From: Thermoanaerobaculia bacterium | GTDB lineage: Bacteria > Acidobacteriota > Thermoanaerobaculia > Multivoradales > JAHZIX01 | NCBI GenBank assembly: GCA_027069135.1 | Contig: JALXFE010000038.1 | Coordinates: forward strand, 1 to 64,000 | Direction: 5' to 3' | DNA length: 64,000 nt | Shown here: one piece after another, positions 34,360-38,309 of the stretch | How positions within the stretch are numbered: position 1 is the stretch's first letter | Layout of the letters: every line of letters begins with the position of its first letter | Program-made: the position numbers and the translations under genes | The notes under the pieces: model-generated | Databases searched by the model: none | The model's input: the letters and a program-made list of their open reading frames with translations, nothing else | Told to the model about the DNA's origin: nothing

Positions 34360-34810
34360 GGCGCGAGTTTATACGCAGCGGCCCACGGTGCTCTTAGCCC
34401 ATGGCTGGGAGGGACGCGGAGCCCAGATGGGTGCCTTTGTCGAACCTCTCGCCGCCGCCGGATTTCGAGTCGTGACTTTTGATGCTCCGGGCCATGGCCA
34501 CTCCACAGGCCGAAGATCCTCCCTCGTCGAGATGGCCGACGCCGTATCCGATGTCGGCCGAGAGTTCGGCCCGCTCTACGCGATCGTGGCCCATTCCGCC
34601 GGGGCCGCCGTCACGACCATGGCCTTGGCCGACGGCCTTCGCGTAGAACAATCGGTGACCGGATTGGCCGGAATAGGCACGAGTCCCGCGGGCTTGGGAG
34701 CCGCACTGATTCAGCGATCGCTGCGGCCGCGCTGCGGGCCATGGCGCTACTTCAATCCGCAGTCTCTCCTCTGCGCCGATCCACCACCACCAGCCATCCG
34801 TGGCTCTTGA
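34358..34810 (+). pseudogene. alpha/beta-hydrolase fragment
   Basis: 150-codon frame: PTVLLAHGWEGRGAQMGAFVEPL, VVTFDAPGHGHSTGRRSS, then VAHSAGAAVTTMALADGLRV. These are the first strands and the nucleophile elbow (HSAGA, Ser about 88) of an alpha/beta hydrolase that is normally about 270-300 residues. After about residue 105 the sequence becomes unlike the family and runs antisense into the next gene, and the usual N-terminal 40 residues are missing. No ribosome-binding site; ATG overlaps the WYL regulator start on the other strand. The Asp and His of the triad are absent, so it is inactive. Confidence 0.7.
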
Positions 34811-36218
34811 GACCTTCGCGAGCCTTTGCGGATGCGGGGCCCTCTAGAATCAAGCGTTTCTCTGCAGAGTGTTTCAAAGCCATTGCCGACTCAGCTGCCG
34901 AGAGAGCCTGCACGAACTCCTCGGTCCAAAGGAGGCACTCCGCCGGTACTGCCACCACCCAGGTTCCAGATTCAGAGAAACCCCATGGTAGGAGAGGACC
35001 ATCAGCCAGCCGGGCCAGCCGATCTACACCCTCGTGGTAGCGCACTAGCATTTCCAGTGACCGGGCGATGACCTTGCCAGCCCGGAAGCGTTCCGACTGC
35101 AAAACCACCTCGATCGCCGAGGCTCGACCAGTGACACCCTCCAACTCGACCAAGGCACGAGTAATCCGCGTCTCGGTAGTTGGAGAAAGGCTCGTCTCCC
35201 AAAAAAGCCGGTCGAGCGAATCCCTTTCTACGCCCATTTCTCCAAGCCACTGTCGGTTCTGCCTTTCCAAGTCCTTTGGATGTTGCTGCCAGACAAGCTC
35301 GTGGACCTGTCCCAACCGGTTCACCAATTCCGGTACCGGCAAATCGATCTGTCGGAAAGCGAGGCCCCCGGCAACAACCACCCAAGCTATCTCTTCTAGC
35401 TCACGCCGCAGATCCCCATTCTCCGTATTGGGATCCACGTTGAGCTCGCGGGCCACCCGTCGCTTGGCCTTGTCGTACCCGATGAGATCCTTGATCCATC
35501 CCTCTCCTTTGTCGAGAACCTTGTCCCCGTCGAGACGCCGAGCCCCGATCGGGTTGGTGCCGGGGCCCTCCGAATTCTTCGGCGGATTGTCTTGCGGGGT
35601 CGGGTTGAAGACCTTTCTTACCTCTTCCTGCGCCTGATTTATCTTGTGAGCTGTCTCTTGGGCCTCGAGAGCGGTCCGCTGGAGGAGTCGCTTGACGCCT
35701 GAACCAAGCCCTCTTGCCGTGGCTACCGGCCGTTGAACGACACTCTTTACAGTGCGGTAGGGCCCGGTAAGGGCAGCCTGTACAGCCTTCTGGAACTCTT
35801 CGGTTTTCTCCATCTCTTCGAGGGCAGCCATGGCCTGGGCTTCGTGTATCCGCACCTCCAACTCCTGGAGACCGGATGCTTCCCACTGCCCCCAACGGGT
35901 CTCGATGAGAAATTCGTAGACATAGCCGTCGCAGGTTGCCTCGGAGGCCACCCTATGGTGCTCGCTCTTCAGCCATTGCGCCGGAACGATTTGGCCGCTC
36001 TCAACTTTCAGAGTCGACTCCGGGGCAAAGACCTCTTGCTCACCGAAGACCATGGTGCTCATCGACAAGGAGAAGAGGATTCCGAGGACCAGTACCATTT
36101 CGCGGAGCTGCCTTGTAGCACCGTTCGCCAAGGAAAGCCGCACGGCGGCTCCGGCCCACAACGCCGAAGAGTCTGCCGGGCAGCCGTTCTTCGGCCCCAA
36201 ACACTTGAATGCGTCCAT
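34752..36218 (-). CDS. large helical protein, probably exported, unknown family
   Basis: 488 residues from ATG at 36218, chosen for GGGGAGGAG just upstream. Residues about 40-65 contain one hydrophobic segment (MVLVLGILFSLSMSTMVFG) after a basic stretch, so it is exported or anchored late; the first 35 residues with two Cys are unusual before a signal. The rest is charged and helical (LEVRIHEAQAMAALEEMEKTEEF, KRLLQRTALEAQETAHKINQAQEE), with a stretch PNTENGDLRRELEEIAWVVVAGG. No domain recognised. Codon use matches its neighbours. It overlaps the hydrolase fragment by 59 bases, tail to tail. Confidence 0.65.
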   Translation of the reverse strand: MDAFKCLGPKNGCPADSSALWAGAAVRLSLANGATRQLREMVLVLGILFSLSMSTMVFGEQEVFAPESTLKVESGQIVPAQWLKSEHHRVASEATCDGYVYEFLIETRWGQWEASGLQELEVRIHEAQAMAALEEMEKTEEFQKAVQAALTGPYRTVKSVVQRPVATARGLGSGVKRLLQRTALEAQETAHKINQAQEEVRKVFNPTPQDNPPKNSEGPGTNPIGARRLDGDKVLDKGEGWIKDLIGYDKAKRRVARELNVDPNTENGDLRRELEEIAWVVVAGGLAFRQIDLPVPELVNRLGQVHELVWQQHPKDLERQNRQWLGEMGVERDSLDRLFWETSLSPTTETRITRALVELEGVTGRASAIEVVLQSERFRAGKVIARSLEMLVRYHEGVDRLARLADGPLLPWGFSESGTWVVAVPAECLLWTEEFVQALSAAESAMALKHSAEKRLILEGPASAKAREGLKSHGWLVVVDRRRGETAD

Positions 36219-36568
36219 GAGTTTCTCCTCCCCTTTTGGAGCGATGTAGTTACCCGAAGAAGACCAGATGAGGCACAAGTATCGCCATCGCCCTCTTTTC
36301 AAGTCAACTCTTCGCGTCGTACGCAAGACTCTTAAACGATACTCGGAACAAGCGGAACAAGAGGGAGTAGAGCAAGGGAACGACGCCTAACAGCCCGTGG
36401 CAGAAGTCAGGGCTCATGTCACCCACACAGTACCCACGGGACCCCAAAGGTCACACGAAAATGCTCGGAAAACGCCCCGGTTTTCGGTCCTGAGACTACT
36501 TCCTATCTAGGCGGGCGACCCTGAGGCGCTTTTGACCCGGGTACGACGCCGCCGAGAGGAGAGCAAAC
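36219..36568. other. intergenic stretch with a solitary TIR
   Basis: 350 bases upstream of the helical protein gene (minus) and the 40-aa ORF (plus). It contains a single copy of the MITE terminal sequence (36388-36411) and a 6-bp inverted repeat GAAAAC/GTTTTC (36468-36485). No other gene seen. Confidence 0.5.
36388..36411 (+). repeat. solitary terminal repeat of the MITE family
   Basis: TAACAGCCCGTGGCAGAAGTCAGG matches the outer 24 bases of the 165-bp elements with one change. The rest of the element and the partner TIR are missing, so it is a remnant or one end of a diverged copy. Confidence 0.75.
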
Positions 36569-36691
36569 ATGCTTAAGGAACTATTGACACAGGTGTACGG
36601 ATTTTTCTTTGCTGTCTTCGCGTTCGGGGAGGCTGAGGGAGGCAGCTCGGATACGGAAAACGGACCCGGGATCGATCCCGATATAAGCTGA
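36569..36691 (+). CDS. 40-aa peptide ORF, hydrophobic N-terminus and acidic C-terminus
   Basis: MLKELLTQVYGFFFAVFAFG followed by EAEGGSSDTENGPGIDPDIS. GAGAGGAGAG five bases before the ATG is a strong ribosome-binding site, and a proper hairpin terminator follows 40 bases past the stop, so the unit looks like its own transcript. The first half is a hydrophobic or signal-like helix and the second half is acidic and Gly-rich. No family recognised. The neighbouring TPR gene (36831) on the same strand suggests a peptide-receptor or regulator-target relation, which is speculation. Confidence 0.6.
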   Translation: MLKELLTQVYGFFFAVFAFGEAEGGSSDTENGPGIDPDIS

Positions 36692-36730
36692 CTCTGATTT
36701 TCAGCTCCTTCTGTCCATTCTAGATTTTCG

Positions 36731-36760
36731 GGGCGCCACGAACGGCGCCCTTTCTTCTTT
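36731..36760 (+). terminator. Rho-independent terminator after the peptide ORF
   Basis: GGGCGCC (36731-36737) and GGCGCCC (36744-36750) form a perfect stem with loop ACGAAC, followed directly by TTTCTTCTTT. Separates the peptide ORF from the TPR gene. Confidence 0.8.
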
Positions 36761-36830: not shown

Positions 36831-38309
36831 ATGAAGAATCCAGACGATATCCACGTAAGCCAAGAACAGTTGGTCCAGCTTCTTTGGCTTGCTGCCTCCT
36901 TTCCCGGAGTCTCTCAAGGCCTTCTTCATCTCCTCGAAGAATGCGATTCCTGCTTCAAGCCCTCGTCCACAGGAAAGGCCCCCGGCGGACATCATTTGAG
37001 CGGTCCCGAGCTCGAGTTGTTCACGGAAAGGCTTGCTGCCGAATCGACGAGAAGCACTCTCGGGGCCTTCGAGCATCTCCTGCAGCAATGTCCAACCTGT
37101 CTCGAAACTGCCAACCCTCTACTGGTGCGCCTCCGGAAGAGGATGGGTGCGGAGTGGATCCCGGGGGATCTCGATGCGCTTGCAGAGCGAGTGTCGAGTC
37201 GTTTCTCTTCCTGGAGCCAAAGAGCGCCCCGAGAAAAGGTGGAGGCACCGGAACTGGGTAGACAGCTACTCGACCACCCTCCGGCTCGCCGCCGCATTCT
37301 TCTCCACAACAGCGAACGCTTCAGCACCTGGCCCTTGATCGATTGGCTCTGCGAAGAGAGCAGGGAGGCGACAAATAGAGCTCCGAAGGACGCAATCGAC
37401 ATCGCAGAAACCGCGGTGGAGGCGGCCGAAAGCCTCGACCCGGAACACTACGGCGAGGCTATTACCGCAGACATCTCCGCGAGGGCTTGGGCCTATCTCG
37501 GAAACGCATACCGCGCGGACGAGTCCTGGAAAGAAGCCGGCCTCGCCTTCGACACTGCCGATGTCTGGCAGGGCCGCGGTACGCAATTCGGAAGTATCAG
37601 AGCTGAAATCTTGTATCTCAGATCTTATGTGGCGTCAGCCCTGCACAGATTCACTGAGGCCCACGAATTACTCAGCTCTGCCCGAGAGATCTACCGAGAG
37701 CTTGGCGAGTCCCACATGGAGGGTCGCCTCTCCGTCATCGAAGCCAACGTATACATCAAGGAAGCCAAACCGGAAGCTTCCGTACGGTGCTTGACATCGG
37801 CCTCGGAACAGATCGACGAAGATCGTGAGCCCCGGCTGCTCTTGGTCGCAAGACAGAATCTCGTACTTGCCCTTGCGGACCTAGGACACTACGAGAAGGC
37901 AGAGCTCCTTCTGCCCGCACTTTTCAACCTCACCAAGAGTGCGGGCAACCGCCTGGACCTTCTCCGCTTGCGCTGGACGGAAGCTCGGATCGATGCCGGC
38001 TTGGGCCGGAGCTCACGGGCAGAGATGACGCTGTCTGACATCAAGGAATCCTTCAAGGGCCTGGGATTGCCTTATGACGCAGCCCTCGTCGGTTTGGAGC
38101 TTGCAAACCTCTACTCAAACCAGGGGAGGACTCGGGAAATCAAGCTTCTCGCCTTGGAGCTGGTCCCCGTCTTTGCCAAGAACGAGCTTCATCGCGAAGC
38201 GTTGGCCGCCATTACTCTTTTCGCCCGCGCCGCGGCGTCGGAAGAGGCCACCGCCGAGGTCGTCAAGAAGACCCTGGAAGCTCTCAAACAAGCTGCTCAG
38301 CGCTCCTGA
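36831..38309 (+). CDS. TPR-repeat protein with N-terminal CxxC pair
   Basis: 492 residues. The N-terminal 100 residues hold two CxxC motifs, EECDSCFKP and QQCPTCLET, spaced like a zinc-binding or zf-HC2-type anti-sigma region. The rest is TPR repeats: DISARAWAYLGNAYRADESW, LGESHMEGRLSVIEANVYIK, QNLVLALADLGHYEKAELLL, ALVGLELANLYSNQGRTREI. The DISAR block and layout match the TPR protein at 850-2097. No signal peptide or catalytic domain. Likely a regulator or scaffold; partner unknown. The promoter seems to lie in the AT-rich stretch after the terminator at 36760. Confidence 0.8.
   Translation: MKNPDDIHVSQEQLVQLLWLAASFPGVSQGLLHLLEECDSCFKPSSTGKAPGGHHLSGPELELFTERLAAESTRSTLGAFEHLLQQCPTCLETANPLLVRLRKRMGAEWIPGDLDALAERVSSRFSSWSQRAPREKVEAPELGRQLLDHPPARRRILLHNSERFSTWPLIDWLCEESREATNRAPKDAIDIAETAVEAAESLDPEHYGEAITADISARAWAYLGNAYRADESWKEAGLAFDTADVWQGRGTQFGSIRAEILYLRSYVASALHRFTEAHELLSSAREIYRELGESHMEGRLSVIEANVYIKEAKPEASVRCLTSASEQIDEDREPRLLLVARQNLVLALADLGHYEKAELLLPALFNLTKSAGNRLDLLRLRWTEARIDAGLGRSSRAEMTLSDIKESFKGLGLPYDAALVGLELANLYSNQGRTREIKLLALELVPVFAKNELHREALAAITLFARAAASEEATAEVVKKTLEALKQAAQRS

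Follow-up and report, generated by a model that had tools for sequence, protein, structure and literature searches.

The locus studied here raises the question of whether a very short open reading frame (ORF) beside a gene for a TPR protein is a real gene, and whether the two belong to one regulatory module, which an initial annotation had pictured as serving either peptide-based signalling or membrane stress. Within the window, the 64-kb stretch of DNA analyzed here (contig 38 of a 7.17-Mb genome), the ORF occupies positions 36569–36691 on the + strand and comprises 40 codons from an ATG start, with the product MLKELLTQVYGFFFAVFAFGEAEGGSSDTENGPGIDPDIS. Both its length and its strong ribosome-binding site were confirmed, the latter read from the sequence as AGGAG (36557–36561, +) 7 nt before the ATG. 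The TPR gene follows at 36831–38309 on the same strand. Based on the ORF, on family linkage, and on selection acting on related peptides, we annotate the small gene as a short form of a peptide family. Its product has no obvious signal peptide and carries NGPGIDPDI (36659–36685, +), which by motif composition across 116 pairs is a variant of the usual xGxxPhiDP[DN]G. On the other side of the small gene lies a divergent 524-codon ORF (34752–36326, −) without a Pfam match.

The pair is not alone. Family searches detected more than 100 related small peptides, mostly exported-looking and bearing a GxxPhiDP[N/D]G motif, that adjoin TPR regulators of an expanded acidobacterial family. The C-terminal DPD-like pattern singled out in the initial annotation is a conserved element in this form, GxxPhiDP[DN]G, and the N-terminal LKELL named together with it was not seen in other peptides. 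TPR-family matches occurred in 35 of the 59 genomes searched, our own included, with maxima of at least 26–27 per genome; our own has about 27 full or partial members at E < 1e-16. A scan of a collection of genome contigs with the window TPR protein as a single query found no relative. Across 199 sampled genomes of the phylum, a strong match was detected in only seven, again including our own and all of the same class, and the peptide/TPR system has so far been seen in one order of Acidobacteriota. The window itself holds a second pair, comprising a 32-aa family peptide found by the motif ORF search (MQILMAIWRWLTETENGGGESGEIGPVIDPNG; 2280–2378, −) and its partner, a second TPR-family gene (850–2097, −; hmmsearch E 1.6e-73). 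Four small ORFs with strong ribosome-binding sites in the 64-kb window fit a loose motif rule, two of them with a genuine GxxPhiDP motif, and both of these sit upstream of the window's only two members of this TPR family.

Linkage between peptide and TPR genes was strongly directional. Among 201 TPR-family genes, a strict-motif peptide ORF was located upstream in the sense direction in 88 of 182 testable genes, versus 5/182 upstream-antisense, 2/163 downstream-sense, and 15/163 downstream-antisense. Under a stricter rule, the counts were 46/119 upstream-sense and 0/119 upstream-antisense, with 2/118 in each downstream orientation and 1/119 for the reversed motif placed upstream. These paired counts depend on the motif rule, which misses variant motifs such as ENGSIVP and leaves roughly half of the TPR genes unpaired with a peptide ORF; simple rules rather than dedicated predictors were used to assign gene starts and signal peptides. 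The association also held when starting from the motif, by scanning whole genomes for the DNA pattern of DP[DN]G-stop: of the 45 distinct short ORFs that had this ending and a ribosome-binding site, 41 were within 1 kb of a TPR-family gene. Among the remaining four, two sit close to the margin of a contig or on one that is very short, and a third directly adjoins a TPR fragment below the filter length. The same scan found no small ORF ending in DP[DN]G-stop in G047, a genome of the same order without a TPR-family match. Many of the downstream-antisense ORFs are convergent partners of HTH-like TPR genes. Such an arrangement is found at L247 and L248 (contigs 23 and 29 of G007), L162, L167, and L172, where peptide genes lie on the opposite strand between HTH-like TPR genes and are convergent with one of them. 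Small signal-peptide-bearing ORFs that end in AEHGxIV or ENGSIVP, lacking the DP motif, were found beside sigma/TPR pairs at L035, L038, L044, and L049, and possibly represent an older or alternative peptide type.

We recovered 107 distinct precursors, 91 of which are long (50 aa or more). By a home-made rule, a signal-peptide-like start was present in 82 of the 91 long forms versus 3 of the 16 short forms, and 81 of the long forms have a Trp in a hydrophobic helix or segment ahead of the motif. Two to four motif copies occur in 49 of the 107 precursors, the motif glycine is the exact precursor end in 50, and searches of the peptides against Pfam and NCBIfam returned no meaningful family. Purifying selection was evident between close peptide pairs, with dN/dS of 0.2–0.7 for nine of the ten that gave a value and 1.04 over 27–30 aa for the tenth (pooled pS 0.36, pN 0.18). 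Equal rates of the two kinds of change, which would have spoken against a coding function, were therefore not the rule, in a comparison made on related peptides rather than on the window copy. Judged from sequence comparison, the peptide genes are real and selected as proteins at the family level. Copies of the motif within a precursor were also concerted: in the 31 precursors compared for this purpose, identity at the four positions preceding DP was 73% within and 32% between precursors, and within-precursor identity in shuffles reached at most 44.5%. Because synonymous change at the codons of these variable residues is high and non-synonymous change low (pS 0.53 versus pN 0.15), the motif copies appear to be old, yet one peptide signature has been kept per gene. 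Copies homogenized in this manner would look like those expected of a multi-copy ligand with paralogue-specific recognition.

Between the peptide and TPR genes of the window lies a stable, terminator-like hairpin (36730–36751, +; stem GGGGCGCC, loop ACGAAC, stem GGCGCCCT) with a T-rich tail and a z of −2.97 for the 46-nt stretch around it. It had been described as perfect, which it strictly is not because one of its eight pairs is a G-T. Terminator-like hairpins occupy this position in 13 of 70 pairs, versus 0.7 expected, and would permit more peptide than receptor transcript. A small ORF directly upstream of a gene, followed by such a hairpin, is also the layout of a cis-acting leader or attenuator in which the ORF and hairpin control TPR expression and the peptide itself is inert. 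That explanation is barely credible here given protein-level selection and the homogenized motif copies, and as a general rule it is further opposed by the several HTH-type TPR genes whose peptide genes are convergent on the opposite strand.

The window peptide is itself an unusual member, ending in DPDIS in place of the usual DP[DN]G. Over 36659–36691, this ending rather than DPDG-stop is explicable by a small frame-shifting change near the end. The closest peptide is MQEFFWLMLGFFGFSSSTDLHGGDYGPGIDPDG in L159, and the nearest TPR partner of the window's copy in the family search has 40% identity. On account of the DPDIS ending and the lack of a close orthologue, the window's peptide copy could be diverging or may be decaying.

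The TPR protein of the window, of 492 aa, is our proposed receptor, based on family search, predicted structure, and fold matches. Its adjoining position and two CxxC motifs were confirmed; these are HLLEECDSC (residues 33–41; 36927–36953, +), which is anti-sigma-like and of the type found in ECF-linked paralogues, and HLLQQCPTC (residues 82–90; 37074–37100, +), both of the form HxxxxCxxC. In the secondary structure of the predicted model, helices 209–450 form the central TPR solenoid (37455–38180, +). AlphaFold2, run with 81 family sequences, predicted an all-helical TPR solenoid with a pLDDT of 93, for which the best PDB matches in Foldseek were LGN/Pins at the top and Rap proteins (E 1.3e-4 to 7.7e-4), among them 4gyo, a complex of Rap with the CSF peptide (E = 1.3e-4). 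Sequence relationships were less specific, with the best 60 PDB profile matches being generic TPR proteins and none indicating RRNPP homology, and with Pfam and NCBIfam returning only TPR and weak regulator models for the family. Models of the NsdA/AfsR type, from Streptomyces TPR regulators whose family names imply no peptide partner, weakly matched the TPR part of 38 and 37 of the 81 members, and the window protein scored 23.8 bits against a curated cut-off of 75 bits. Matches in a viral structure library were confined to a few phage proteins and generic TPR proteins from giant viruses, and PADLOC gave no meaningful defense match. The top fold match also points to eukaryotic LGN/Pins-Inscuteable and kinesin light chain, in which a TPR groove reads a linear motif; these, however, are eukaryotic scaffolds that share homology with the family only in the repeat.

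If the motif were bound in such a groove, its variable residues might be expected to track the receptor. In TPR folds, the concave face is lined by A helices, and after overall TPR similarity was removed, motif residues tracked columns located in A helices. Two of three leads, which link motif residue 3 to column 346 and motif residue 5 to column 377, ranked second and fourth of 397 columns in disjoint nearest-neighbor pairs, a re-test drawn from the same data set as the discovery; this covariation, which involves the codons of L346 (37866–37868, +) and L377 (37959–37961, +) in the window protein, is suggestive. The third lead, between motif residue 1 and TPR positions 269/270, was strong in pooled data and was set aside because it was lost in disjoint pairs. 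In an AlphaFold2 model of a peptide-linker-TPR read-through (L094), the motif was not placed (pLDDT about 30).

An alternative is that the peptides act outside the cell as antimicrobial, membrane-active, or structural agents, with the TPR protein serving only in regulation or protection and the motif not being its ligand. Small exported proteins beside regulators are common, and the hydrophobic Trp helix ahead of the motif in 81/91 long forms would suit such a role. Nonetheless, motif repeats with precursor-specific residues, the acidic character of the motif regions, and the covariation with TPR columns all make it clearly unlikely, as does the fact that no immunity or transport gene was recurrent beside the pairs.

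Further indications of function come from what the TPR proteins are attached to. Immediately upstream, 42 of the 201 TPR genes (at L033, L036, L040, L085, and 38 others) have an ECF sigma gene, which in many cases overlaps the start of the TPR gene, and most of the TPR proteins at these loci carry a zinc anti-sigma-like motif. Pfam confirmed Sigma70 regions 2 and 4 in the upstream sigma genes, and 15 of the 42 sigma-linked loci also have a strict-rule peptide ORF ahead of the sigma gene, so that the genes run peptide - sigma - TPR. H(x3-5)CxxC was present at least once in 76 of 135 TPR-family members, and the zf-HC2 and ChrR models matched 4 and 5 of 81 members, respectively. Other paralogues carry HTH_3/HTH_31 (XRE) or AraC-type HTH_18 domains. 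From their sequences, the sigma/TPR loci are candidates for a class of TPR anti-sigma factors with cognate sigma factors. Like ChrR and other zf-HC2 members of the ZAS anti-sigma factors, they combine an HxxxxCxxC near the N-terminus with, in these 42 cases, an upstream ECF sigma, but they differ in having a peptide gene and, at the C-terminus, a large TPR domain. The classical ZAS zinc motif is H-x3-C-x2-C, from which the spacing of the window motifs differs by one residue. The window copy further departs from ZAS factors in having two such motifs and no sigma neighbor: no ECF sigma gene was found next to the TPR gene within the 64-kb window, and no HTH domain was detected in its protein by sequence and domain searches. 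With no sigma gene nearby, the window protein must act on a target that is encoded elsewhere or is of a different kind. A review of ECF mechanisms (PMC8999054) mentions TPR extensions that belong to the ECF42 sigma factors and not to anti-sigma factors associated with peptides. In class-level relatives outside the order (L188-L195), sigma plus TPR was found with no peptide detected, which suggests that the sigma/TPR pair is ancestral and the peptide a later addition within this order.

These outputs also bear on whether the small gene could instead encode a RiPP precursor, with a C-terminal and sometimes repeated core and the TPR protein as an accessory factor. The leader-core-like layout with repeated cores agrees with this, and 10 of the 81 TPR proteins weakly match HaaT, the TPR protein of a cyclophane RiPP system. 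However, no modifying-enzyme family was recurrent in flanks of roughly 1.5–2 kb around 186 loci, and sigma and HTH outputs suggest regulation, which leaves a RiPP origin very unlikely.

The closest parallels are with RRNPP/RRNPPA systems (Rap-Phr, PlcR-PapR, Rgg-SHP, AimR-AimP), which likewise pair an adjacent pro-peptide gene with a cytoplasmic TPR receptor. In the acidobacterial family, too, the motif is C-terminal and sometimes repeated, and most precursors look exported by the home-made rule. Internal pheromone repeats and multi-copy pro-peptides have been described for Phr families (PMC11343458), and many paralogous RRNPP pairs per genome, as in the acidobacterial family, are known from Paenibacillus (PMC7425212). 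The adjacent pro-peptide gene, also present for the window copy, and a C-terminal TPR domain whose predicted fold matches Rap are shared features, and some members combine an XRE HTH with TPR. The N-terminal HTH or Rap-type helical bundle of RRNPP receptors, by contrast, is absent from the window protein, and most members have a zinc anti-sigma-like N-terminus and ECF sigma partners rather than HTH. The conserved GxxPhiDP[DN]G motif and the Trp helix are further differences, as is the host, since the surveys consulted assign RRNPP peptide quorum sensing to Bacillota and the phages that infect them, and a sequence relation was found only at the level of the TPR repeat. As we read it, the system works like RRNPP but falls outside RRNPP on sequence homology and, for the window copy, on the N-terminal domain.

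Our main reading, to which we give a probability of roughly 55%, is that the pair is one copy of an expanded RRNPP-like peptide/TPR regulatory system, in which we infer ligand binding, processing, re-import, and output. The small gene would encode a pro-peptide that in most members has a Sec-like signal peptide, a Trp helix, and one to four acidic xGxxPhiDP[N/D]G copies. Given the exported appearance of most precursors, we consider it likeliest that they are mostly exported and that the motif peptide is released and re-enters the cytoplasm, as happens in RRNPP quorum sensing. Oligopeptide-binding proteins may provide the route back, and the seven SBP_bac_5 proteins encoded in our own genome are compatible with this. 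The motif would then be the ligand of the neighboring cytoplasmic TPR protein, bound in its concave groove, with the variable motif residues deciding which paralogue is recognized. Binding would switch the N-terminal module, either an XRE/AraC DNA-binding domain or a zinc domain that resembles anti-sigma factors and targets an ECF sigma. Of the two roles first proposed, a peptide/TPR module with RRNPP-like logic is strongly supported by linkage, selection on related peptides, multi-copy precursors, and fold, the peptide being its putative ligand and signal, and nothing was found in support of a membrane-stress module.

The main rival to this RRNPP-like circuit is retention of the FlgM/ExsE type, in which the precursor would bind the TPR protein inside the cell until export removes it. 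Such an exported co-regulator would sense secretion capacity rather than cell density and would need no re-import. Signal peptides on most precursors, TPR regulators that look cytoplasmic and lack signal peptides, and the sigma/anti-sigma-like output are all consistent with it. However, several homogenized, linker-separated copies better fit the release of several equal peptides, and the short forms have no signal peptide, so we give it a real but minor chance.

No earlier description of the family was found in the open-access literature, itself weak evidence of absence, and the RRNPP-like system is a strong candidate for a so far undescribed peptide-receptor signalling system. Tentatively, and with the odds leaning slightly against, we propose a new class, independent of Bacillota RRNPP, in which GxxPhiDP[N/D]G peptides made in multiple copies are recognized by TPR proteins acting as peptide-gated anti-sigma or HTH regulators, each acidobacterial genome of this kind having some two dozen pairs with mutual specificity. 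If proven, a peptide-gated anti-sigma role would be categorically new. With roughly two dozen TPR paralogues or more in a genome, all divergent, such a system would provide naturally occurring candidates for orthogonal peptide/receptor pairs in studies of specificity. A comparable system in a diderm phylum would extend the peptide/TPR principle to the poorly studied Acidobacteriota and, if true, would supply a testable input for the ECF sigma factors and TPR proteins of this phylum.
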